Assembly (NCBI RefSeq): GCF_013036045.1
Contig: NZ_WTPX01000037.1
Coordinates: 1-35,638, forward strand
Direction: 5' to 3'
DNA from: Alienimonas chondri
GTDB lineage: Bacteria > Planctomycetota > Planctomycetia > Planctomycetales > Planctomycetaceae
Length of the DNA: 35,638 bases
Shown one piece after another: positions 4,259 through 33,722 of the stretch. The position numbers were made by a program, and so were the translations under genes. Within the stretch, counting starts at the first letter, position 1. Each line of letters begins with the position of its first letter. Below the pieces are notes generated by a model. It saw only the letters and a program-made list of their open reading frames with translations, was not told where the DNA came from and searched no databases.

Positions 4259-6907
4259 ATGTCGTTTCCCTTTTCGCCTCCGGTGGAACTGCAGCTTGCC
4301 GCGTCGCTGGTTGCGGCGGCGTTGCTCGCCGGGCCGGCTCATGCGGGGCAGGAGGCGACGGCGGACGAACGCATCACCCAGTTCGTGGCGACGCACTGCC
4401 TGGACTGTCACTCCGCCGGGGCCGCGGAGGGGGGATTCGCGCTTGATTCGCTTTCGGCCGACCTGACCGACGCGGTCGCGGCCGCAGCGTGGGCGAAGGC
4501 GCTCGGACGCATCGAGCGAGGCGAGATGCCGCCCGAAGAGTACGGCACGCTGCCGAAGGGCGAGAGCGCCGCCGCGACCGCCTCGCTGCGGGAGAGTCTC
4601 GTGGCTGCGGAGCGTCTCTCCCGGGCGAAGCAGGGAAGAGCCGAACTGCGGCGACTCAGCCGGGAGGAATACGCCAACTCGCTCAAGGAGATCCTCGGGC
4701 TGCCGCACCTGGATCTCGCCGACATGCTGCCGCCGGACGGCGTGCAGGACGGGTTCGCCAAGAGCGCCGGGGCGCTCGATTTTTCGCACGTCACCGTCAG
4801 TCGCTATCTGGACGTCGCCGACTTCGCTCTCCGCGAAGCCCTCGCCGACGATCCGAACCCGCGTCGTCCGACTGTCATGCGGGCGACGATGAACAGCTTG
4901 GAGGGCGCCGCCGACGTGCAGACGTTGAAGACTCAGTTGAAACAGACGATGGGGATCCCGCTGGTCGGCACGGAGATCGACCCGACGCTGACGGTCTCCA
5001 ACGGCGATTTCGCCACCCGCGACCCCGGCGTTCTCGAAGACCCGGCGCCGAAGTTCGACGGCGTCGCCACGTTCATGCACTCCCGGGCGAACCACAACAC
5101 CGTGGTGAAACCGTTCCGCGTGCCGCAGGACGGGGAGTACGTCTTTCGCGTTCGCGGGTGGTCGCTGCGGAACGACCACGGCACGCTCAAACCGACCGAC
5201 GAAGGCGGCGTCGTCGCCTTCTATACGCCGACCGGGCGTCTGCTGGGACGCTGCGATCTGCCTCCGAACGAACCCGGGGTGGGCGAGTGTCGGGCGTGGC
5301 TGAGGAAGGACGAACCGATCGAATACCTCGCGGTCTCGCCGCCCTCGGCGTGGATCAAGGGGAAGCTGACGGACGGGGTGCGGCGCTACGAGACGTTCGA
5401 TTCCGTCGGCGTCGCGATCCAATGGCTCGAACTGGAAGGCCCGCTGCCGCCGGAGGGGAGCGATGCGCAGGTCGCCTCGTGGCCGCCGGAGAGTCATCAG
5501 CGCCTCATGGGCGAGTTGCCGTTGGAACGGATCGAAGCCGACCCGAACGCCGATCGCCGCCGCGGTCGACGGGCGCCGCCGGCAGTCGACCCGGATTCGG
5601 GACTCCCTTATCACGTGGTCAGCGCCGATCCGCAGGGGGACGCTGATCGCCTGTTGAAAGCCTTCGCCGAGCGCGCCCTCCGCCGCCCGGCGACCAAGGC
5701 GGACCTCGCCGTTCCTCGGGCACAGATTCAAGCCCGGCTGGCCGACGATCAGCCGTTCGTCGAGGCGATGCTGGCGGGCTATCGGGCGCTGCTGACCGGC
5801 CCGGCGTTCCTGCTGCGATTGGAGGAACCGGGATCGTTGGACGGCTACGCGGTCGCCTCCCGACTGGCGATGTTCCTCTGGGACGGCCCGCCGGATGCGG
5901 AACTGGAAGCCGCCGCGGCCTCGGGCGAATTGCTGACCGACGCCGGGCTGCGTCGCCAGACGGAGCGGTTATTGAACGACCCGCGGTCCGAGCGGTTCGT
6001 CGCCCGGTTCCTGAATCGCTGGCTCGATCTGGAGGATATCCGCCTGACGGAGCCGGACGAAAATCTGTACCCGGAGGCAACCGCCTTTCTGACGGAGTCG
6101 ATGGTCGAGGAAACCCGGGCGTTCTTCGCCGCGATGCTGCGGGAGGATCTGTCGGCCAGCCATGTGTACGACTCCGACTTCCTGATGGTCAATCAGCCGT
6201 TGGCGGAGTTATATGGAATCGACGGGGTGACCGGGTCGGATCTGCGTCGCGTCGCGATCCCCGCGGAACACCCACGTGGCGGGCTGCTGACGCAGGCGTC
6301 TCTCCTGAAGGTGACGGCAAACGGCACGACCACCAGCCCGGTGGTGCGGGGCGTATTCGTGATGGATCGCCTGCTGGGCGATCCGCCGCCGCCGCCCCCG
6401 CCGTCGGTGCCGGCGATCGAACCGGACATCTCCGGGGCGACCACGATCCGCGAACTGCTGAACGCCCACCGGGGCGACCCGGCCTGCGCGGGCTGTCACC
6501 GAAAGATCGACCCGCCGGGCTTCGCTCTCGAAAGCTTCGACGTGATGGGCGGTTACCGCGATCATTACCGCATCCTGGCGGACGGCCCGCCGGGCAAACG
6601 GGAGCGGAAACCGGATGGTCGGCCGATTGGCTACGAGGTCGGCCCGCCGGTCGAATCGTTCGGCGATCTGCCCGGCGCCGGCGCGTTTGAGGACGTGAAC
6701 GGGTTCCGCGATCGGCTGCGGGGCATGGACCGGCAGATCGCCGCGAACCTGTTGCGTCGGCTGACCGTTTACGCCACCGGCGCCCCGGTCTCGTTCGCCG
6801 ACGAAGCGGAGTTCGAAGCGATGCTGGATCGCCTCGAACCCGGCGGGTTCGGGGTCCGATCGATGGTGCATGCTCTCGTGCAGAGCCGCATGTTCCGCGA
6901 GAAATAA
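4259..6907 (+). CDS. DUF1592-family planctomycete CxxCH protein (DUF1587/1595/1592/1588/1585)
   Basis: An 882-aa exported protein. A signal peptide ends near AHA (residues 1-30). The first heme-type motif CLDCH is at 47-51. A DUF1587-like segment follows (ELRRLSREEYANSLKEILGL, about 125-145). Next comes a beta-rich middle region (PFRVPQDGEYVFRVRG), then DUF1595 (RLLKAFAERALRRPATKADL), DUF1592 (from GYRALLTGPAFLLRLEE), and DUF1588 with the family's poly-proline stretch and a second motif CAGCH at 743-747. A DUF1585 tail ends the protein. This architecture is characteristic of planctomycetes and relatives. The biochemical role is not established; cytochrome-like electron transfer is inferred from the CxxCH motifs. 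I chose ATG 4259 over an in-frame TTG two codons earlier. The DUF1552 gene follows after 57 bases, the usual partner. Confidence 0.93.
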   Translation: MSFPFSPPVELQLAASLVAAALLAGPAHAGQEATADERITQFVATHCLDCHSAGAAEGGFALDSLSADLTDAVAAAAWAKALGRIERGEMPPEEYGTLPKGESAAATASLRESLVAAERLSRAKQGRAELRRLSREEYANSLKEILGLPHLDLADMLPPDGVQDGFAKSAGALDFSHVTVSRYLDVADFALREALADDPNPRRPTVMRATMNSLEGAADVQTLKTQLKQTMGIPLVGTEIDPTLTVSNGDFATRDPGVLEDPAPKFDGVATFMHSRANHNTVVKPFRVPQDGEYVFRVRGWSLRNDHGTLKPTDEGGVVAFYTPTGRLLGRCDLPPNEPGVGECRAWLRKDEPIEYLAVSPPSAWIKGKLTDGVRRYETFDSVGVAIQWLELEGPLPPEGSDAQVASWPPESHQRLMGELPLERIEADPNADRRRGRRAPPAVDPDSGLPYHVVSADPQGDADRLLKAFAERALRRPATKADLAVPRAQIQARLADDQPFVEAMLAGYRALLTGPAFLLRLEEPGSLDGYAVASRLAMFLWDGPPDAELEAAAASGELLTDAGLRRQTERLLNDPRSERFVARFLNRWLDLEDIRLTEPDENLYPEATAFLTESMVEETRAFFAAMLREDLSASHVYDSDFLMVNQPLAELYGIDGVTGSDLRRVAIPAEHPRGGLLTQASLLKVTANGTTTSPVVRGVFVMDRLLGDPPPPPPPSVPAIEPDISGATTIRELLNAHRGDPACAGCHRKIDPPGFALESFDVMGGYRDHYRILADGPPGKRERKPDGRPIGYEVGPPVESFGDLPGAGAFEDVNGFRDRLRGMDRQIAANLLRRLTVYATGAPVSFADEAEFEAMLDRLEPGGFGVRSMVHALVQSRMFREK

Positions 6908-24932: not shown

Positions 24933-25754
24933 TCAGGCCGGCACGGCATCCGGGAAGTTCGTGTCGTCCGGCGAGCCGGGCAGTCCCGTGAGCCAAAGCA
25001 GAACCAGCAGATCTCGCCACCAGGTCGCCGCCGGATCGAAGGCCGGCAGCCCCGCCGCGACCGCCGCGGCGTGCCGTGCGGCGAGCGCGTCGTCCTCTGA
25101 AGCAGCCAGTACGTCCGTGTTCTTGAAGCGACGCCAGCGGAACTGATCCCGACCCTCCCGATAAGATCGGACCATCTCCAAGAACCACGCCGAGCGGACG
25201 GCGTCCCCGGCAGCGCCCACCGGCCGTTCTGCGGCGAGGTTATAAAGGAACGCCAAGGCGGCGGGGCGGTAGTCCGAAAGTTGAGCCATCGTTGCCAGCG
25301 TGTCGAGGACCGCTTGGCGATGATGCACGAGGTCGCAGTAACGCAACCGCCAACCTTTCGCCCGGCAGCCGTCCCGGTCCCAATGTTGAATACGGAATTT
25401 CGCCGTCCAATCGCTCAAACAGGCGTCGAGCGTGTCCCGGACCTTCTCCGCCAGACCGTCCCGCCGAAGCTCAAGCCACGTAAATTTGAGGAATAGTGAG
25501 ATCGGGCTGACTAGTTCTAACGCCGCATCCCCGCCTGCGCGGAGCCGACCGAGAGCAAGCGGCAGGAAGTAGACGGCCTCCTCGTATCTCGCCAGATCGA
25601 CCACGTCGAGCAGCCGATGAAAATGCGCCTCCTCATAATCGTCGTCCGCAATCGCCAGCAGCCCCTCGGCATATCCGCCGGGACGCATGGAGTTGTAGGG
25701 GTCCGCGAACGTCGTTGGCCGCGGGTACGGGACTGCGAAGGCCGGCTCGGTCAT
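24933..25754 (-). CDS. Unrecognised 273-aa protein translationally coupled to the FG-GAP gene
   Basis: I do not recognise a family. The protein has no signal peptide or clear membrane helix and looks cytoplasmic and mainly helical. It is rich in aromatic residues, Arg and Asp: NSMRPGGYAEGLLAIADDDY near the start, EEAHFHRLLDVVDLARYEEA, IQHWDRDGCRAKGWRLRYCD in the middle, and WWRDLLVLLWLTGLPG near the end. Its ATG overlaps the stop of the upstream 1229-aa gene in an ATGA, so translation is probably coupled. The real-gene call rests on codon pattern, clean start and tight spacing on both sides. A cytoplasmic helper for the exported FG-GAP protein is a guess from position only. Confidence 0.75.
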   Translation of the reverse strand: MTEPAFAVPYPRPTTFADPYNSMRPGGYAEGLLAIADDDYEEAHFHRLLDVVDLARYEEAVYFLPLALGRLRAGGDAALELVSPISLFLKFTWLELRRDGLAEKVRDTLDACLSDWTAKFRIQHWDRDGCRAKGWRLRYCDLVHHRQAVLDTLATMAQLSDYRPAALAFLYNLAAERPVGAAGDAVRSAWFLEMVRSYREGRDQFRWRRFKNTDVLAASEDDALAARHAAAVAAGLPAFDPAATWWRDLLVLLWLTGLPGSPDDTNFPDAVPA

Positions 25755-28700
25755 CGCTCTCCCCCAGCCGCATTCCGCATCGCCCGCCAGAAGCCGCGGG
25801 CGTCGGCCGGGCGGGTTTGATATTCATCGAGATACGCCCGCAGCTCGGGGGTGTCCGGGAACGGCTCGTCGGCCGCGGGCGGGTAGCGGGTCATGCCGGA
25901 GTGCGGCAGCGGCAGCACGCCCTGGCCGTGGACCGTGTGCAGGTTCGCGTCTTTGTCGTAGCCGATCGAACTGATCACGAAGTCCCGCGTCCACCCCTCA
26001 CGCAGCGGCGGGACCGTAAACTTCAACGCCATCTCGTCCCCGCTGGCGAGGATCGCTTGGCGGTCGTCGGCGTCGATCAATAACTCGCGCACGTCGCCGT
26101 ATCGGGTGAACGGTCCGGCCATCGGCGGCCACAGCGGGTCGCGGCTGACGGTCTGATAGTCGAATTGATCCGGCCCGTGCCCGCTCTCCGGCCAACTGCG
26201 TGCGGAGAAGCCGCGGTATCGCAGCTCCGCGGAGACCAACTCCGCCGGCGTCTCGCGGGTCTCGACGCCGCCGGGCACGCACCACGCGGCGCGATCCCAA
26301 TAGAGCTCCTGCGTCCCGCTGATCCGCACCCGGCGGGGGGCGGTAGGGAAGTTCGGTAGCGGCAGGGCGATCGTCTTCGTCTTCCCACCGGGGAACCCGG
26401 CGTTCGGCAGCATCGTCGTCCAGCCGTCCGCCGTCTCCATCGACAACGTCGGCGGCCGCGGCCCGCCCGCCTCGGGGTTCTGCGACAGAGCGACGTTGAT
26501 CCCCGTATCCGTGGGGAACACCCATCCGGTTAGTAATAGCACGGCGCCGCTCCGCGGCGCCCCGGCGAGGTCTAACTCCAGCGTCCACGGCTCCGTAAAC
26601 CCCTGCGTCCGCTTCACATCGAACGGTTTGAGGTAATCCTCGTCCCTCGCTCGCACCGTCTTCAACACGTCTTTCCAATCGCCTTCGCCGGATCGCACCC
26701 GGGCCGCGGCGGGCGCGTGCAGGGCCTCCGTCGCATAAAGATGCGGTTCGACCAGTTCCGGCGGACCGACTTTTTCGTTAGTAAAGATGTATGTGTCAGG
26801 CGGGTGATCGACGCAGGTCAGTTCCAGCCGGTCAAAATACTCCGCCTCCCACAGCTCGCAGCAGACGCGGAGTTCATAGAACCCGTCTTTGGATTGCAGA
26901 GCCTCGCCGTCGATTTTGACGTGCTCCCAGGCCCGGGTCGGGGCGAACACGCCCTCGGCCAGTTGGAGGCCGATCGGCGCCGCCCAGCAGAGGTCCGTGG
27001 CGAACGCGAATCGCACGCCGTTCCATGTATAAAGATACGGACAGGAGCCGCCGAGTTTTTGCGGGTGGCAGATCGCCCCGCTGGTCGGGTCGCGGATCAC
27101 CTCCGGGATGCCGTTGGTCCAGAGCACGCGTAACGCCTCGCCGGCGGGAACCTCCCCCTCCGCGGCGTCCGAACGCGGCCCGAGGCCGAAGTGCGTGACG
27201 GCGTCCCGCACGACCGCCGGTTGATAGATCGGCCCGCGACGCAGCTCCAACAGGCTGCCCAAGCCGCGGTGATTACAGCGCTTCGGATCGGTGCCGTCTT
27301 TGTCGAACTCCGCCAGCAGGGCAATTTGCAGCGAGGCGTTCGCCTCCCCGCCGCGATTTTCCCAGAGGACGAGTCGATTCTCGGAAAGCAGGACGAAATC
27401 GAGATCCCCGTCCCCGTCCAGATCGCGGGGCAGGGCGTCGCTGATCGAATCGGACAACGCGGGCAGGCGATCGGACACGTCCTCCCACCCGCCGGCGACG
27501 CTCCGCAGCAACCAGACCCCGTCCGGCCCCCAGGCGAGCAGGTCGACGCGGCCGTCGTTGTCGTGATCGACAGCCCGCAGCCGGGCGGCGGGGATCTTCG
27601 CAATGGTCCGCGGCTCGCCCCATTGCATTCGGCCCGGGGCGGGCGTGGTTGAGGTCTGCAGTCGCACGCGGCCCCCGTCCGCGACGGCGAGATCCCAACT
27701 CGCGTTGCCGTCCGCGTCGAGTAGTTCGAAACCGATTGGATCATCGCTCCCGCCGTTCGCTCGAAACTCCCCGTGCCGCAGGTTCTCCCACACGCTGACG
27801 GGGGCCGCCTCGCCCGCCGTGCCCAACAGCAGATCGAGGTCGACGTCGCGATCGAGATCCACCGCGAGCACGTCCGAGATCGCACTCGCACCGACCGGCC
27901 CGAGGTCCGAGCGATCGGTGCGTTCTTCAAAGGTGACGTTCCCGCGATTGAACCACAGTGCCGGCCCCGCGGCGGAAAGAACGACGAGATCGAGATCCCC
28001 TTCCTGATCGAGGTCCGCCGCGACGACCTTCGTCACGACCCGCAGCTCGTTCAGCGGCTCCTGCTCCAGGAAGGGAACGAGAGTGCGGGCGCCGTCGGGC
28101 AGTAGGCGGTTCTCCAGCGCCAGCACGCCGTTTGGCCCCCATACCACGAGGTCCGGGTCAGCGGTGTGGCAGGCGACCGCAGCGCCGGCCCGCCCCGCAG
28201 CGGCCTGCGGGGCGGCGTCGCTGTCGAGATCGAGGTCCGCGGCGATCAGGCCCGTGTACGCGACCGGGCTCGTGTATTGGTCGGCGGGGAGGTCGTATCG
28301 AACCGTCTCAACCCACGGTCCGCCGTCGTTTCGAGAATGAACCGACACCGCGTCGTCGGTCAGCACGATCAGCTCCTCACGCCCCAGCAGGTCGAAGTTC
28401 GTCGCCGCAACGGCGCGGACGCCCTCGATCGCCGGGGCTGCGAGCGGTCCGTCGAAGGGGGCGTATTGAACCGCAATCCCCGTCGCGTCCGGCGTGCGGG
28501 ACAGGCCGACGGCGTCGTAGAACCGCGGCGGCAGATCCGGGACGACGAAGTCGAGCGCCGTGCGTTGCACCGCGAGCCGATCGGAGCGCACGATCTCTTC
28601 GCTTCGCAGCAGGTTGAACAGCAGCGCCGCGGATCGCTGAGCCGCGGGCCAATCGCCGTCCTTCGCGGCGGACTCGCCGGCGTCGACCAGCGGCAGAATC

Positions 28701-29440
28701 TCCCCGTTCTGCCGCAGGGCAAACCCGTCGGCATAGGGGGTGAGGCGTTCGCGGAGGGCGGCGAACGCTTCAATCGCCCCGGCTTTCTCCTCCTGAACGA
28801 ACCATGTGATATACCGCAGCAGGATCCATGTGTTTTCCGGGGCGCCTTGATAGGCCATATTGATCGAGGCTTCAGCCACGACCGGATCTCGGTCTTTGTT
28901 CAGCTCGTACCACGCCAAGTGGGCCCAGGGGACGCTCTTGTCGTTAGTCAGCGCCCGACCGATGAGTTGGGCGAAGGCGTTCGTCTCAAGGTTCCGATCG
29001 CCCTTCGCAGCCGCCCATCGGCTCACCAAGAACCACGGGTCGGGATCGTCCGGGGCGGCGTCGATTGCCGCCTGCACCGCCTCTTCGGCTCTCGCGATCC
29101 ACGCCCCCCGCTCCTCCGCCGGCAGGGCGTGGCCGGATTCGGGATCGATCGCCAGCACGGCGCCGACCGCCCGGTTGCGGATCGCCGCCGTGCGCACGCC
29201 GAGGTCGTCCGGCAGCGGCTGGTCGATCAGTTCGGTCAACACCGGGTCCGCCGCGACCGGATCGCCGGCTTCCAGCGCGGCGACCGCTTCGTTGTGAAGC
29301 CGCACCAATTCGGCGCCCCTCGCGGGGGAAGGGACCACCGGCCGATCCCACCACCACGCGGCGAGCCCCACCCCGAGGGCCAGGAACAGCAACCCCGCCA
29401 GCGGCAGGACGAACGAACGGCGGCGTTTGGAGTCGGTCAC
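25751..29440 (-). CDS. Large TPR / FG-GAP (VCBS) / ASPIC-UnbV protein with a C-terminal Cys-containing domain
   Basis: 1229 aa from a GTG at 29440. One N-terminal membrane anchor (FVLPLAGLLFLALGVGLAAW). Residues about 40-320 are helical TPR-like repeats. About 345-715 is an FG-GAP propeller with Ca-binding type loops: DLDQEGDLDLVVLS, DLDRDVDLDLLLG, DHDNDGRVDLLAW and DLDGDGDLDFVLLSE. An ASPIC/UnbV segment follows near 720-775 (RCNHRGLGSLLELRRG, LRVLWTNGIPEVI). After it comes a conserved extra domain beginning ICHPQKLGGSCPYLYTWNG near residue 790, known from other planctomycete FG-GAP proteins, then a beta-rich tail. The protein is likely anchored in the membrane with its propeller in the periplasm. 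Ligand and function are unknown. It begins 78 bases from a divergent ASPIC lipoprotein gene. Confidence 0.88.
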   Translation of the reverse strand: MTDSKRRRSFVLPLAGLLFLALGVGLAAWWWDRPVVPSPARGAELVRLHNEAVAALEAGDPVAADPVLTELIDQPLPDDLGVRTAAIRNRAVGAVLAIDPESGHALPAEERGAWIARAEEAVQAAIDAAPDDPDPWFLVSRWAAAKGDRNLETNAFAQLIGRALTNDKSVPWAHLAWYELNKDRDPVVAEASINMAYQGAPENTWILLRYITWFVQEEKAGAIEAFAALRERLTPYADGFALRQNGEILPLVDAGESAAKDGDWPAAQRSAALLFNLLRSEEIVRSDRLAVQRTALDFVVPDLPPRFYDAVGLSRTPDATGIAVQYAPFDGPLAAPAIEGVRAVAATNFDLLGREELIVLTDDAVSVHSRNDGGPWVETVRYDLPADQYTSPVAYTGLIAADLDLDSDAAPQAAAGRAGAAVACHTADPDLVVWGPNGVLALENRLLPDGARTLVPFLEQEPLNELRVVTKVVAADLDQEGDLDLVVLSAAGPALWFNRGNVTFEERTDRSDLGPVGASAISDVLAVDLDRDVDLDLLLGTAGEAAPVSVWENLRHGEFRANGGSDDPIGFELLDADGNASWDLAVADGGRVRLQTSTTPAPGRMQWGEPRTIAKIPAARLRAVDHDNDGRVDLLAWGPDGVWLLRSVAGGWEDVSDRLPALSDSISDALPRDLDGDGDLDFVLLSENRLVLWENRGGEANASLQIALLAEFDKDGTDPKRCNHRGLGSLLELRRGPIYQPAVVRDAVTHFGLGPRSDAAEGEVPAGEALRVLWTNGIPEVIRDPTSGAICHPQKLGGSCPYLYTWNGVRFAFATDLCWAAPIGLQLAEGVFAPTRAWEHVKIDGEALQSKDGFYELRVCCELWEAEYFDRLELTCVDHPPDTYIFTNEKVGPPELVEPHLYATEALHAPAAARVRSGEGDWKDVLKTVRARDEDYLKPFDVKRTQGFTEPWTLELDLAGAPRSGAVLLLTGWVFPTDTGINVALSQNPEAGGPRPPTLSMETADGWTTMLPNAGFPGGKTKTIALPLPNFPTAPRRVRISGTQELYWDRAAWCVPGGVETRETPAELVSAELRYRGFSARSWPESGHGPDQFDYQTVSRDPLWPPMAGPFTRYGDVRELLIDADDRQAILASGDEMALKFTVPPLREGWTRDFVISSIGYDKDANLHTVHGQGVLPLPHSGMTRYPPAADEPFPDTPELRAYLDEYQTRPADARGFWRAMRNAAGGER

Positions 29441-29518: not shown

Positions 29519-31381
29519 GTGCAGCGATCGCGTCTCCCCCCGCCGCTTCTCCTTCTGACGCTGGCGTTATGCCTCCCGGGGTGCGGCGAGCGGGCGACGC
29601 AGCGACCGGTCCCCGCCGTCGAAACGCCTCGCCCGGTCCCCCCGTCCGATACGCAGCCTGGCTCGCCGGCGTTTGCGGACGTGACGAGCGACGTCGGCCT
29701 GTCCTTCACCCGCTTCGACGGTCGCCTGCCGGACGGGAACGGCCGGATCGCGGGCGGGCGACGGATGCATGAATGGACCGGCGGCGGCGTGGTCGCGTTC
29801 GATTACGACCTCGACGGCCGCCCCGATCTACTGTTCACGCAAGGCTGCGAGTGGTCCGCAGAGGGCGTCCCGCCCAGCAGCGAACCGGACCCCGCGGCCG
29901 AGCGACGGGGGCGTCTATTTCGCAACGTGGACGGCGAACGCTTCGAAGACGTTACGGACGCTTCGGGACTGGCCCTCACAGGCTACGGGCAGGGGATCGC
30001 CGCGGGCGATTATAATGCCGACGGGTTCCCGGATCTGTTCGTCTGCAACGTCGGGGCGAACCGCCTGTGGAGAAACGAGGGCGACGGAACGTTCGCCGAC
30101 GTGACGGAGGAAGCCGGCTTCACCCCGCACCCGGACGGCACGGACTGGACCGTCTCCGCGGCGATCGCGGACCTCAACGCCGACGGGCTGCCGGACATTT
30201 ATGAGGCGAACTACCTCACCGGCCGGGACGTTTATACGAAGATCTGCCGCACCGGCGACGACCCGCCGCGGACGTGCAGCCCGAACGGCTTCCCCGCCGC
30301 CGCGGATCGCGTCTGGTTGAATCTGGGCACCGGGCGGTTCGCGGAGGTCGCCGACCTCGCCGATCTCCCGGCGCCTGGTCCGGGATTGGGTGTGCTGGTC
30401 ACCGACCTCGACGGCCGGCCGGGCAACGAGGTCTACGTCGCCAACGATCAGCGGCCCAACCATCTGCTGAGGCGAACGAACGCCGGCCCCGGCGGCACGC
30501 CGCGATTCCGGGACGTGGGCGCCGCCAGCGGCGCCGCGACGTCCGGGGAGGGCGAGAGCGAAGCCGGCATGGGGATCGCCTCCGCCGACCTCAATGCCGA
30601 CGGCCGCCCGGACCTGTTCGTCACGAACTTCGAGGGCGAATCGAACACGCTCTATCGCTCCTCGGACGACAGCGGCCCTCTGATCTATGAGGACGCGACA
30701 CGCCAAACCGGGTTATTTGAACCAAGCTACGAAACGCTCGGCTTCGGGACGGCGTTCCTCGATATGGACGCCGACGGCGACGAGGATCTCATCTACGTCA
30801 ACGGTCATATCGACGACTTCACGCACCGCGGCTCCCCCTTGTTTATGCGGCCGGCGATGCTGGAGAACGTCGGCGGACGGTTCGAGCCGATACCGTCCCA
30901 CGTGGCGGGCTCGTTCTTCGCCGCCCCGGCGCTCGGCCGCGGTCTGGCGCGGGTGGACTGGAACGGCGACGGACGGGACGAAGTCGTCGCGACCCATCTC
31001 AACGGCCCCGCGGTCCTGCTGCGAAACGTATCGACCGAGGGCGAAACCGTCTCCCTGCGACTGGTCGGCACGACCGACAACCGCGACGCCGTCGGCGCCG
31101 CCGTCACCGTGACCGCTCCGACTGCCGACGGCGTGCCCAGCGGCCCCCGCACCAAATGGATCACCGCCGGGGACGGCTACATGAGCGGCGACGAGAAGCA
31201 GCTGTCGTTCGGCCTCGGAGCGACGCCGCCGGGTGCGATGCTCGACGTCGTCGTCCGCTGGCCGGGCGGGGCGACGGAGCAGTTCAAAGGCATGACCGCC
31301 GACGGGCGGTTCCTGCTGGTTCAGGGAGCGGGAACCGGCAACGTACTGCTCGGCCATTTAAGTTCCGACCCGGGCAACTGA
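29519..31381 (+). CDS. FG-GAP / ASPIC-UnbV (CRTAC1-like) lipoprotein
   Basis: 620 aa from the GTG at 29519. The N-terminus is a lipoprotein signal (LLLLTLALCLPGCGE) with lipobox Cys near residue 19. Six to seven FG-GAP units follow: FDYDLDGRPDLLFTQG, GDYNADGFPDLFVCNVG, ADLNADGLPDIYEANY, ADLNADGRPDLFVTNFEG, LDMDADGDEDLIYVNG and VDWNGDGRDEVVATHLNG. The ASPIC/UnbV domain closes the protein (LVGTTDNRDAVGAAVTV, then KQLSFGLGATPPGAMLDVVV). Such proteins bind Ca2+ through the DxDxDG loops; their ligands are generally unknown. The last 61 bases overlap the end of a convergent secreted-protein gene. The final part of this gene is duplicated about 776 bases downstream. Confidence 0.9.
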   Translation: MQRSRLPPPLLLLTLALCLPGCGERATQRPVPAVETPRPVPPSDTQPGSPAFADVTSDVGLSFTRFDGRLPDGNGRIAGGRRMHEWTGGGVVAFDYDLDGRPDLLFTQGCEWSAEGVPPSSEPDPAAERRGRLFRNVDGERFEDVTDASGLALTGYGQGIAAGDYNADGFPDLFVCNVGANRLWRNEGDGTFADVTEEAGFTPHPDGTDWTVSAAIADLNADGLPDIYEANYLTGRDVYTKICRTGDDPPRTCSPNGFPAAADRVWLNLGTGRFAEVADLADLPAPGPGLGVLVTDLDGRPGNEVYVANDQRPNHLLRRTNAGPGGTPRFRDVGAASGAATSGEGESEAGMGIASADLNADGRPDLFVTNFEGESNTLYRSSDDSGPLIYEDATRQTGLFEPSYETLGFGTAFLDMDADGDEDLIYVNGHIDDFTHRGSPLFMRPAMLENVGGRFEPIPSHVAGSFFAAPALGRGLARVDWNGDGRDEVVATHLNGPAVLLRNVSTEGETVSLRLVGTTDNRDAVGAAVTVTAPTADGVPSGPRTKWITAGDGYMSGDEKQLSFGLGATPPGAMLDVVVRWPGGATEQFKGMTADGRFLLVQGAGTGNVLLGHLSSDPGN

Positions 31382-31908
31382 TGCGGCGTGGGTTCGGCAA
31401 GCGCCGTGAACAAAACAATACGTTCGTCGATCGCAGTTCCAGATTCATCTTCGCTGCTGGTCCTGCTTCCGCCGCACACGATTGGTTTGCCGAACTCGTC
31501 GATGCTCAGGAAGGTTTCGAGCACGTCCATGTCGTAGATCGGCCTTGTTTCGCCGTTGGGACCGGAGGGTACGGACCCGTTGAGCGTGACGTCATAATAT
31601 CGCAACTGGAAGGAATATTTGGACTCGCCGAAGCGGCTGCGCGTCGTTTCGACCGTGCCGGAGAAGGAACGCGTGCGGTCGTCGTCGACGACCTGCGCTT
31701 GGAACGTCCCGTCCGGGGCGACGGTCGCTTCGATCGATTCTTTCAAGACGACCTCCGGCCCGCCGTCCTTGGAGGAGGTCTCGGTCACCTCCACCCGCAC
31801 GGCGCCCGGGAGCGTCGCGGCGGCGGGAAGGGCGTCGTCAAACGCCGCGGCGGTCAGCAGCAGAGCGAGGGGCAGCATCGCGGGGTACGTCCATTGCAAG
31901 GGGAATAA
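31165..31908. repeat. Tandem duplication, copy 1
   Basis: This unit holds the last part of the FG-GAP/ASPIC lipoprotein gene and the whole convergent 185-aa secreted-protein gene. It is repeated at 31941-32684 with a nearly constant offset of 776 bases: 31183 matches 31959, the minus-gene stop 31321 matches 32097, and its ATG 31878 matches 32654. The plus-strand stops differ by a 3-base indel. Long identical runs remain at both ends, for example GTCGTTCGGCCTCGGAGCGA and CTGGTTCAGGGAGCGGGAAC; the middle has diverged. The left boundary is fuzzy because similarity fades near 31165. Confidence 0.88.
31321..31878 (-). CDS. Small secreted protein, duplicated family, copy 1
   Basis: 185 aa from the ATG at 31878; a TTG at 31899 would add seven residues. 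The signal peptide is MLPLALLLTAAAF. The mature part is beta-rich, with TLPGAVRVEVTETSS, the ESIEATVAPDGTFQAQVVDD block, RTRSFSGTVETTRS and YSFQLRYYDVTLNGSVPSG, and a Pro-rich end (LAEPTPHQLPG, then PVPAP). I do not recognise a family. A paralogue of the same length lies at 32097-32654, alike at both ends and in the ESIE and DRTR-FSGTVE blocks and diverged in the middle. The 3' end overlaps the convergent lipoprotein gene by 61 bases, and the conserved C-terminus is encoded opposite the ASPIC C-terminus. Probably periplasmic or exported; function unknown. Confidence 0.72.
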   Translation of the reverse strand: MLPLALLLTAAAFDDALPAAATLPGAVRVEVTETSSKDGGPEVVLKESIEATVAPDGTFQAQVVDDDRTRSFSGTVETTRSRFGESKYSFQLRYYDVTLNGSVPSGPNGETRPIYDMDVLETFLSIDEFGKPIVCGGSRTSSEDESGTAIDERIVLFTALAEPTPHQLPGSELKWPSSTLPVPAP

Positions 31909-31940
31909 ATATCAGGCGGCCGCTCAACCGTGGCGGGAGT

Positions 31941-32154
31941 CGCCGGCGATCACGCCTTGAGCGGCGACGAAAAGCGGTTGTCGTTCGGCCTCGGAGCGAC
32001 GCCGCGGGGAACGATGCTCGATGTCGTCGTCCGCTGGCCGAACGGGACGACGGAGCGGTTCGCGGGCATCACAGCGGGCGGCCGATTCCTGCTGGTTCAG
32101 GGAGCGGGAACCGGCTCCGCGTCCGGCCCTTCGAGCATGGGCCCCGGTATTTGA
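31941..32154 (+). pseudogene. Orphan C-terminal fragment of the FG-GAP/ASPIC lipoprotein gene
   Basis: The frame reads LSGDEKRLSFGLGATPRGTM, then LDVVVRWPNGTTERF and GGRFLLVQGAGTG, and aligns with the last 70 or so residues of the 620-aa lipoprotein. It lacks the signal peptide, all FG-GAP units and most of the ASPIC domain. An in-frame GTG at 31930 gives at most 74 aa with no signal, so a working product is unlikely. The frame is nevertheless still open to a stop at 32152-32154, and changes look conservative. Part of this may reflect constraint from the antisense secreted-protein gene, which it overlaps by 58 bases. Confidence 0.82.
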
Positions 32155-32654
32155 TGAGGCGTCGGTTCGGCCAGCAGCGTCACGGAGACGACGCTTTTGG
32201 TCGAGACGGTTCCCGTGTCGGTGTCGTCCCGCCTCGTCAGCCCCCTTCCGCAGGGCGTCGGCTCGCCGAAACTGACCGCGTAGAGTGAAGTATTCAGGCT
32301 GTGCACGTCGTAACTCGGCTGCTTTTCGACGACCAATCTCGACGGCTCGGATCCTCTGATCGTCGCGTCGCGGTAGCGGAATCGAATCAGATACCGGGCC
32401 GGGCCGATGGGGGCGCGGGCCGGCTCCACCGTGCCGGAGAAGGTCCGCGTCCGGTCTCCGTCGACGATCCGCGTTTGAAACGATCCGGCAGCGGCGACGG
32501 TCGTTTCGATCGACTCGTTGGAGACGACCCCGGGGCCGCCGTTCACGGTGACGGTGTTCGTTACCTCCAGCCGCACGGCGCCCGGGAGCGTCGCGGCGCC
32601 GGGAAGGGCGTCGTCAAACGCCGTGGCGGTCAGCAGCAGTGCGAGGGGCAGCAT
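32097..32654 (-). CDS. Small secreted protein, duplicated family, copy 2
   Basis: 185 aa with signal peptide MLPLALLLTATAF. It is a paralogue of the protein at 31321-31878. Shared blocks are DDALP-AATLPGAVR, ESIE-TVA, DRTR-FSGTVE, FGEPTPCG (FGKPIVCG in copy 1) and LAEPTPHQ-PG with PVPAP at the end. The middle has changed strongly, by rough count to about half identity overall, with in-frame indels only, so both copies look functional rather than decayed. One cysteine is shared (CG near residue 140). It starts 33 bases after the Gfo/Idh stop on the same strand, so it may ride on that transcript, whereas copy 1 does not. Family and function are not recognised. Confidence 0.72.
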   Translation of the reverse strand: MLPLALLLTATAFDDALPGAATLPGAVRLEVTNTVTVNGGPGVVSNESIETTVAAAGSFQTRIVDGDRTRTFSGTVEPARAPIGPARYLIRFRYRDATIRGSEPSRLVVEKQPSYDVHSLNTSLYAVSFGEPTPCGRGLTRRDDTDTGTVSTKSVVSVTLLAEPTPHQIPGPMLEGPDAEPVPAP

Positions 32655-32687
32655 CGCGGGGCAGGTCCGTTGTAGGGAGAATGGGTG

Positions 32688-33722
32688 TTAAACCGTCACC
32701 CAGGCGTCGTGGGCGTCGCTGGCGCGCAGGGCTTCGATGACCCGCAGGTTGGCGACGGCGTCGGTCAGCGGGGTGGGGACGGGGGTGTCGTTCAGCACCG
32801 CGGCGCCGAACGCCTCCGCCTGGAGCGTGTATTGATCGGCGATCGGGACTTCTTCCCGCAGCGGCTCGCCGTATTCGCCCGAACTGCCGGATTGCGTCCA
32901 GATCACGCAGGGCTTGTCCGGCGGGGCGTTGAAGGGGATCTCCAGTTCGACCCGGCCCTTCGTCCCGAAGGCGTTGACCCGCTGGTACGGCACGAGTTGC
33001 GTCGAACAGGTGAACGTCGACGTGCCGCGGCCGCCCGGCCCGTCAAACTGGAGGACGCCGTCGGCGGTGCGATCGGTGCCGTAGTCCGGGTCCGTTTCGA
33101 TGCGGCCCAGCACGCGGTCCGGCTCCGCGCCGAACAGCCAGCGGGAGAGGGAGATTTGATAGCAGCCGATATCCATCAACGCCCCGCCGCCCTTCGCGGG
33201 ATTGTTGCGGATGTCGTCGGGGTTTCGATTGAAATAGCTGAAGTAGGACTGGATCGACTTCAATTCGCCGACCGCGCCGCCGTCGATCAGTTGTTTGAAC
33301 TGAATCCATTGCGGATGCAGGCGATACATGAACGCCTCCATGACCTTTAACTCGGGCCGCTGCGCGGCGGCATCGACGAGGGTTTGAGCCTCCGCCGCGG
33401 ACAGCGCCAACGGCTTCTCGCAGAGGACGTGCTTGCCGGCGTCCAACGCCTTCAACGCCCAGGGGACGTGGGCGTCGTTGGGCAGGGGAATGTAAACCGC
33501 GTCGACGTTCTCGTCGGCCAGCAGCGCGTCGTAGCTGCCGTGGTGACGGGGGATGCCGAGATCCGCGGCGGCTTTCTCGGCGGCTTCGGGCCGACGACTG
33601 GCGATCGCGACGACCTCCGCATTCGAGGCCCGCTGCGTCCCGGGGATCACCTTATTCACCGCGATGCGGGCGGCGCCGAGGACTCCCCAGCGGACTTTGG
33701 CAGCGGACGGATCGAGCGACAT
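32688..33722 (-). CDS. Gfo/Idh/MocA-family NAD(P)-dependent oxidoreductase
   Basis: 344 aa, cytoplasmic. The N-terminal Rossmann fold carries the nucleotide-binding GVLGAARIA near 13-21. The family motif CEKPLALSAAEA has catalytic-region Lys103. The C-terminal alpha/beta domain has GGGALMDIGCYQISLSRWLFG, where Asp and the tyrosine region contribute to the substrate site. The sequence most resembles the sugar or dihydrodiol/xylose dehydrogenase branch (LHPQWIQFKQLIDGGAVGEL). It would oxidise or reduce a sugar or similar polyol; the substrate cannot be fixed. It sits downstream of the ilvB terminator, so it needs its own promoter in the short stretch before 33722, where a 10-base palindrome CGAACGTTCG lies at 33728-33737. 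Confidence 0.92.
   Translation of the reverse strand: MSLDPSAAKVRWGVLGAARIAVNKVIPGTQRASNAEVVAIASRRPEAAEKAAADLGIPRHHGSYDALLADENVDAVYIPLPNDAHVPWALKALDAGKHVLCEKPLALSAAEAQTLVDAAAQRPELKVMEAFMYRLHPQWIQFKQLIDGGAVGELKSIQSYFSYFNRNPDDIRNNPAKGGGALMDIGCYQISLSRWLFGAEPDRVLGRIETDPDYGTDRTADGVLQFDGPGGRGTSTFTCSTQLVPYQRVNAFGTKGRVELEIPFNAPPDKPCVIWTQSGSSGEYGEPLREEVPIADQYTLQAEAFGAAVLNDTPVPTPLTDAVANLRVIEALRASDAHDAWVTV

Follow-up and report, generated by a model that had tools for sequence, protein, structure and literature searches.

Tandem duplication of a small gene for a probably exported, secretin-core-like protein in Alienimonas chondri

In a 35,638-nucleotide stretch of DNA from the planctomycete Alienimonas chondri (contig NZ_WTPX01000037.1, hereafter the window), a 776-bp segment that carries a small minus-strand gene is tandemly duplicated. 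As sequence history, the duplication in itself is ordinary. Greater interest lies in the encoded protein, here called a mini-secretin, which represents a fast-evolving, probably exported, secretin-core-like family that is doubled at this locus and whose mode of action we infer. Secretins themselves are subunits from which large secretion channels of the outer membrane are built. Taken as a whole, we consider it fairly likely that a secretin-core-like gene was duplicated after A. chondri split from the only other member of the genus examined (G003), that both copies were kept intact and exchanged sequence at their 5′ ends, and that the product is a subunit that does not insert into membranes.

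A tandem duplication at a convergent gene overlap

Two families of direct repeats recovered by a repeat finder, one of 300 nucleotides at 76% identity and one of 175 nucleotides at 85%, are each spaced by exactly 776 nucleotides, and a scan of identity at this offset also reveals the direct repeat. Global alignment of 31165-31930 with 31941-32706 gives 558 identical columns of 752 (about 74%) and a score of 656, compared with a maximum of 66 across 279 random pairs from the window. A preliminary description of this DNA had reported a unit of about 776 bases present twice in a row, with both minus-strand copies intact at 185 amino acids, and this is confirmed: both open reading frames (ORFs) run uninterrupted from ATG to stop. 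The limits given there, 31165-31908 and 31941-32684, need revision. At the right edge, 31905-31957 and 32681-32733 are identical at 32 of 53 positions, a level reached by none of 35,373 other offsets. At the left edge, near 31182, the segment 31129-31181 gives only 23 of 53, a level matched by 751 of 35,373 random offsets. Similarity therefore runs to approximately 31957 and 32733, inside the oxidoreductase gene of the GFO/IDH/MocA family, so that the two units (31182-31957, then 31958-32733) abut without a spacer and breakpoints fall within both neighboring genes. The preliminary description had correctly placed a breakpoint in the FG-GAP/ASPIC lipoprotein gene and had missed the second, in the oxidoreductase gene. 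Because the junction has diverged, the exact breakpoint bases are uncertain by several nucleotides.

Each unit comprises one complete minus-strand gene of 185 codons plus stop and the 3′ ends of both neighbors, namely about 200 nucleotides of the ASPIC gene and 46 nucleotides of the oxidoreductase gene (Table 1). The resulting order is ASPIC gene, copy 1, an oxidoreductase relic joined to an orphan ASPIC tail, copy 2, and the oxidoreductase gene. The overlap is 61 nucleotides between copy 1 and the 3′ end of the ASPIC gene and 58 between copy 2 and the orphan tail. As the preliminary description had stated, the copied plus-strand part is only the C-terminal end of its gene: the Pfam search finds in the orphan tail neither a whole ASPIC domain (PF07593 positions 21-64 of 68 only) nor the preceding FG-GAP repeats.

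Ordinary tandem duplications of small genes arise via illegitimate recombination. The present case resembles them in its head-to-tail repeat and in having both breakpoints within neighboring genes, and nothing essential differs, although it is unusual that the genes overlap convergently and that the orphan tail is undecayed. We propose that illegitimate recombination duplicated 776 bp in tandem, taking in one complete gene and the 3′ end of each neighbor.

Table 1. Features of the duplicated region and its neighbors in the window
Feature	Position	Strand	Content or basis
Duplicated unit 1, 776 bp	31182..31957	.	ASPIC-gene tail, mini-secretin copy 1 and oxidoreductase-gene relic; identity at offset 776
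Duplicated unit 2, 776 bp	31958..32733	.	Orphan ASPIC tail, mini-secretin copy 2 and true oxidoreductase 3′ end; identity at offset 776
Mini-secretin copy 1, 185 amino acids + stop	31321..31878	-	ORF; family profile (copy 1 included) E 4.1e-63; AlphaFold model, eight strands
Mini-secretin copy 2, 185 amino acids + stop	32097..32654	-	ORF; 56% identical to copy 1; AlphaFold model
Near-identical tract covering the copy 1 start and codons 1-28	31795..31885	-	Partner 32571-32661; candidate gene-conversion tract
Interval between copy 2 stop and copy 1 start, 218 nucleotides	31879..32096	-	Orphan ASPIC tail, oxidoreductase relic and copy 1 leader; coordinates
FG-GAP/ASPIC lipoprotein gene	29519..31381	+	Pfam PF13517, PF01839, PF07593; start codon GTG and lipobox LPGC, from the sequence
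Orphan ASPIC tail	31958..32154	+	Open to its stop; PF07593 34.3 bits, profile 21-64 of 68; codon comparison
GFO/IDH/MocA 3′-end relic	31912..31957	-	QGVIAGDSRHG*AAA* versus EALRASDAHDAWVTV*; in frame, premature stop
Intact GFO/IDH/MocA oxidoreductase gene	32688..33722	-	Pfam PF01408, PF22725, PF02894; 33 nucleotides upstream of copy 2

Divergence and age of the two copies

The two proteins align at 56% identity with indels of one codon only. The preliminary description had proposed computing the ratio of nonsynonymous to synonymous substitution (dN/dS) for this pair. The value is 0.58 (dS 0.61, dN 0.35), with dS exceeding dN in 99.8% of 1000 bootstraps, which gives no indication of positive selection and is consistent with weak purifying selection having kept both copies intact. 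We considered positive selection acting on mid-gene codons and rejected it, given this overall ratio and a ratio of 0.50 past codon 30; that reading is weakened further by the fast evolution of orthologue pairs. When changes are polarized with G003 as outgroup, 68 fall on the copy 2 branch, 41 on the copy 1 branch, and 47 are ambiguous (a simple chi-square on 68 versus 41 gives about 0.01). Copy 2 is thus evolving faster than copy 1.

Divergence is distributed unevenly along the gene. Between the copies, dS rises from 0.036 over codons 1-30 to 0.42-0.48 over columns 31-80 and 1.0-1.4 beyond, and the concentration of divergence in mid-gene noted in the preliminary description is partly an effect of this apparently homogenized 5′ end. 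The tract listed in Table 1 is the best segment at a mismatch penalty of 8 and was matched in 0 of 5000 permutations; its limits become 31787-31885 at penalty 5 (0 of 5000) and 31652-31885 at penalty 3 (p 0.0038). Four-fold sites are identical at 21 of 22 positions in the first 30 codons versus 30 of 55 downstream (Fisher p 0.0004). Because the same 30 codons differ from G003 with a dS of 0.69-0.76 plus a ten-residue gap, strong constraint is an unlikely explanation and a conversion tract a better one. We conclude that the first 30 codons were probably homogenized by gene conversion, a local exchange. One observation weighs against this conclusion. In two of three other orthologue pairs, 5′-end dS is also lowered (0.29 of 0.75 and 0.24 of 0.64), so constraint may explain part of the pattern; these two pairs are less extreme than the window, and in the third dS is not lowered (0.58 of 0.58).

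The timing of the duplication rests on G003 as the one outgroup. As the preliminary description had suggested, the arrangement was sought in this related genome, which has it as a single copy: a 169-amino-acid family member (L016 6899-7408) is convergent with the ASPIC orthologue (80% identical to the window gene) and overlaps it by 37 nucleotides. A matching FG-GAP-repeat gene lies beyond the ASPIC gene and a GFO/IDH gene lies on the opposite side, with an extra gene between the oxidoreductase and mini-secretin genes. The lone G003 copy occupies the equivalent convergent overlap, so the duplication probably arose within the A. chondri lineage after its split from G003. The large FG-GAP-repeat protein gene in the window (25751-29440) is divergent to the ASPIC gene, and its G003 counterpart, 72% identical, likewise adjoins the ASPIC orthologue there. 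The extra G003 gene (L016 ~6000-6815, ~270 amino acids, no Pfam match) is not found at that position in the window, and a 34% homologue lies on another contig of the same genome.

It is quite unlikely that the duplication predates the species split, with G003 having lost one unit and conversion having rejuvenated the tails and 5′ ends. Such an origin would fit the copy-copy dS of 1.2-1.4 in mid-gene (columns 81-140), which resembles the 0.7-2.0 of copy 1 versus G003. Columns 121-150 also weigh against a recent duplication, because there copy 1 agrees with G003 at 10 sites and copy 2 with G003 at 5, and the sites where copy 1 agrees with G003 outnumber those where it agrees with copy 2. However, over the whole gene 47 amino acid sites are common to both copies as against G003, compared with 25 where copy 1 agrees with G003 and 11 where copy 2 does. 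The dS between the two ASPIC tails (0.26-0.33) is likewise lower than that to G003 (0.43-0.47 and 0.64-0.74). Moreover, when the ASPIC protein was used as the query, no second tail turned up in the G003 locus (3456 bases), although the orphan in the window was recovered in the same way.

The state of the orphan tail is relevant to a second alternative. Outside the overlap, it differs from the in-gene tail at 20 of 139 positions, versus 17 of 46 for the oxidoreductase relic (Fisher p 0.0023), and its dN/dS against the in-gene tail is 0.38. Decay of the tail was considered, and there is no visible sign of it. On the orphan branch, polarized changes number 5 synonymous and 5 other; on the in-gene branch, 1 synonymous and 5 other; these counts are too small to establish selection. 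Conversion by the intact gene could account for the good state of the tail, as could an origin in another strain. In the latter case, the second unit would have come from unequal recombination with a diverged strain, differences between the copies would be those between the strains, and the 5′ end would have been homogenized later. We regard this scenario as unlikely, yet it deserves some weight. It agrees with the undecayed tail and with the similar relation of copy-copy to copy-G003 dN in the tail (0.106/0.161) and in the gene (0.351/0.559). The tail comparison spans 43-51 codons only, though, the 5 and 5 changes on the orphan branch are not clearly unlike the 71% nonsynonymous expected under neutrality, and conversion from the intact ASPIC tail would preserve similarity equally well.

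The orphan frame could alternatively encode a small expressed protein maintained by selection, a reading that we consider very improbable. A GTG at 31930 can open a frame of 74 codons, the ASPIC motif is still above its Pfam cut-off, and the dN/dS ratio given above is compatible with constraint. Against this, the GTG falls within the decayed relic, no leader is apparent ahead of the tail, and the frame stays free of stops in 54-76% of neutral simulations (20 or 9 substitutions).

A fast-evolving family beyond the curated libraries

A profile built from six members matches 20 of 170 genomes of the same taxonomic family, both members of the genus included; two of these genomes are counted through matches with stops and three through matches inside larger frames. 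In a phylum-wide sample of 392 genomes, eight match, consisting of seven from the same taxonomic family and one whose match is a true secretin. The alignment of the family used below holds 13 of the 25 profile-match rows, and omits larger proteins, fragments, other tandem copies, stop-containing rows, and the intact members of G024 and G033. A protein search of the A. chondri genome itself (97% complete, 355 contigs) returned the two copies and one weak match (E 0.6).

In agreement with the preliminary description, which called the family unrecognized, no curated model covers it above its cut-off. Pfam gives no match at E ≤ 1 for either copy; NCBIfam gives none for copy 1 and a single meaningless one for copy 2 (E 0.15). 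The 13 aligned members have no match at cut-off among the rows checked. This small family is therefore outside the curated libraries searched. Literature searches on planctomycete secretins and on truncated, standalone, orphan, or minimal secretins, in which subscription journals were poorly covered, found no such family among the papers listed.

Tandem copies also exist in other genera. G029 has two (L096 7432-8752) with 60 of 153 residues identical, and G115 is probably another case, with three close profile matches (L099 264-1177). The ASPIC gene was considered as a general partner of the family and rejected: among 19 loci with flanks of up to 1.5 kb, it is present only in the window and G003. 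Across ten regions, the G003 locus, and part of the window, no neighborhood is conserved beyond the genus, and neighbors are common only to close species pairs; the exception is two isolated protein matches between genera.

The family evolves quickly even where it is not duplicated. Four species pairs were compared, three of them single-copy, using all reciprocal neighbors in the three pairs outside the genus and three neighbors in the window/G003 pair. By dN, the family member ranks first of 12 genes in G025/G026 (0.25; next 0.145), first of six in G141/G143 (0.19; next 0.08), and third of eight in G031/G024 (0.146), behind two ORFs at 0.38 and 0.34, with the rest at or below 0.08. In window/G003, the two copies give 0.56 and 0.80, versus at most 0.20 for the three neighbors. 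Family dN/dS is 0.25-0.33 in the three outside pairs and 0.45-0.65 in window/G003. A wide spread among members is thus a habit of the family, and no special diversification after duplication is needed. Of the preliminary proposal that duplication was followed by diversification, the duplication stands, and what was taken for diversification is mostly the normal speed of the family (top dN in three of four pairs, third of eight in the fourth). Some small neighboring ORFs in the close pairs are also fast, with dN/dS of 0.88, 0.82, and 0.57, and two of them outpace the family (L090 14924-15451 with L091 14270-14839; L092 761-1213 and 9093-9575 with L093 12882-13448 and 6403-7077).

Predicted secretin-like fold and possible role

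AlphaFold models were built from a 6-row alignment for copy 1 and a 12-row alignment for copy 2. Both contain eight strands between residues 26 and 161, with a predicted local distance difference test (pLDDT) score of 76 and 80 overall and of 70-93 per ten-residue block over residues 21-160. Confidence is low at both ends, over residues 1-20 and starting again at about residue 165. Structural comparison with VIA-align, a re-ranking of the top 1000 chains from Foldseek with one row per entry, places secretins or secretin-containing machines at ranks 1-26 for copy 1 (Z 12.7-8.3; first other entry Z 6.3) and at ranks 1-28 for copy 2 (Z 13.3-8.4; first other entry Z 6.5). For some entries, for example 7ah9, 6q14, 6q15, and 8co1, the identity of the chain as a secretin was taken from the entry title. 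The eight predicted strands equal the number per secretin subunit, which has four outer and four inner strands (PMC8563730).

Sequence profiles point in the same direction. Comparison by hhalign of the family with seven secretins (7 of 10 secretin loci; L068, L069, and L071 are partial and were omitted) gives E 1.3e-4 and a probability of 54%, in linear order. The family profile also finds, at E 2.9e-4, a 536-amino-acid protein from another family of the phylum (L059) that is a true secretin, with PF00263 at E 1.1e-42 and both STN and Secretin_N present. Four domain-carrying proteins have sub-threshold matches to Pfam Secretin (E 2.8e-5, 0.014, 0.039, and 0.051) that share approximately region 52-131 of the 169-position profile. 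One domain-carrying protein (L041, G166) is a 506-amino-acid ORF resembling an alpha/beta hydrolase with the family domain at its C-terminus; its matches to Pfam Secretin (E 2.8e-5; 24.2 of 27.5 bits) and Peptidase_S9 (E 2.7e-4) are below the cut-offs.

Several results weigh against a relationship to secretins. Three of the five AlphaFold models for copy 1 are poor (mean pLDDT 44-52), whereas all five for copy 2 score 77-80. Foldseek E values are only 1.5e-3 and 2.4e-3, with TM scores of about 0.3-0.5 and root-mean-square deviations above 10 Å, and the VIA-align deviations are 3.4-6.9 Å. Ail, a monomeric barrel, is ninth in the Foldseek list for copy 1 and third for copy 2. Only 2 of the 13 aligned members touch Pfam Secretin (15.4 and 13.6 bits; best E 0.014), and one member fits the Ig-like domain of NUP210 better (E 1.5e-4; 22.1 bits, cut-off 27). 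When sequences of the PDB were searched with the family profile, seven matches were obtained to E 10, the best at E 0.2, and none is a secretin. Given this last result, the secretin link rests on the predicted fold and on weak profile similarities.

These results bear on the possibility that the proteins are monomeric outer-membrane barrels of the OmpX/Ail type, or have a generic beta fold such as an Ig-like domain, and are not related to secretins. Eight strands, the presence of Ail, OmpX, and NspA among the Foldseek matches, and the NUP210 match would all suit such an assignment, and the Ig-like match and the Ail ranks led us to raise its weight and to lower that of a secretin relationship. 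However, in both models Ail and OmpX reach only Z 4.5-6.3, compared with 8.3-13.3 for secretins, and the independent sequence-profile links point to secretins. We therefore judge a barrel or generic fold to be improbable, and continue to favor a secretin-like core.

The family nevertheless departs from canonical secretins in several respects. Neither the two window proteins (no match at E ≤ 1) nor the 13 members reach the curated cut-off of PF00263, and no STN or Secretin_N domain is among the Pfam matches of the 13 members at E ≤ 1. At 157-192 amino acids, members have room for only one domain after the leader. In secretins, the amphipathic loop is flanked by the last two strands. In both window models, these strands are joined by two or three residues, and the insertion-loop motif [GSN].[IL]P..[GS].[LAF][FWL] is absent from all 13 members. 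The motif is found in 7 of 7 secretin domains (G000, G003, and G412), a control that is not independent because the motif was derived from them, and was loosened after a stricter form missed two of five distinct entries. According to PMC8134430, secretins require this loop for insertion.

Compared with the secretin beta (C) domain of GspD, PilQ, InvG, and phage pIV (PF00263), the family is alike in the order of its eight predicted strands (125-151 residues), in its best Z scores of 12.7 and 13.3, and in the weak profile links. It differs in having roughly half as many residues as the domain it matches, so that the gates and long loops are presumably missing, and in having neither N-domains nor the amphipathic-loop motif. 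The mitochondrial GspD found in certain protists similarly consists of the C-domain part alone, without the N0-N3 and S domains, but it retains an amphipathic helical loop and inserts into liposomes (PMC8134430); the family described here is bacterial and does not have the loop motif. Because the N-domains and the insertion-loop motif are absent, we do not file these proteins as secretins, and on the basis of the models we describe the family as secretin-core-like. We infer that the family descends from secretins; the predicted fold and the absences are as given above.

The ends of the proteins vary. At the N-terminus, the signal peptide of the preliminary description corresponds to a plausible hydrophobic stretch, but no Lys or Arg precedes it in the window copies or the G003 protein, whereas one does in all ten distant members of the alignment, as read from their sequences. 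The proteins are probably exported. At the C-terminus, the window and G003 proteins are about 20 residues longer than most distant members, which stop soon after the last strand. The last ~19 codons of copy 1 are antisense to the ASPIC gene, and the extension has low confidence in both models, as would be expected for a tail gained by reading into a neighboring gene. Among the ten distant members, only that of G029 has a C-terminal extension, and no ASPIC gene adjoins it.

We propose that the duplicated gene encodes a small, probably exported protein with a predicted eight-strand secretin core, which would be located in the periplasm or at the face of the outer membrane as a non-inserting, secretin-like beta subunit. 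It may form a soluble ring, or act as a partner or plug of one of the full-length secretins of the cell, and the second copy would supply a second, diverging subunit. More tentatively, and with considerable doubt, we speculate that the family is an exported derivative of the secretin core, lacking N-domains, gates, and loop, that forms a ring, either soluble or accessory, on a secretion machine, and that duplication has turned it into a system of two subunits in this species, with overprinting opposite the ASPIC gene as the source of a C-terminal tail.

Paralogues that appear hypervariable, as these do, call for a comparison with orthologue pairs before any claim of diversification. The family suggests that a secretin core can stand alone as a small protein without the parts used for membrane insertion. 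If so, it would offer a simple subject for learning what the secretin beta-sheet does by itself.

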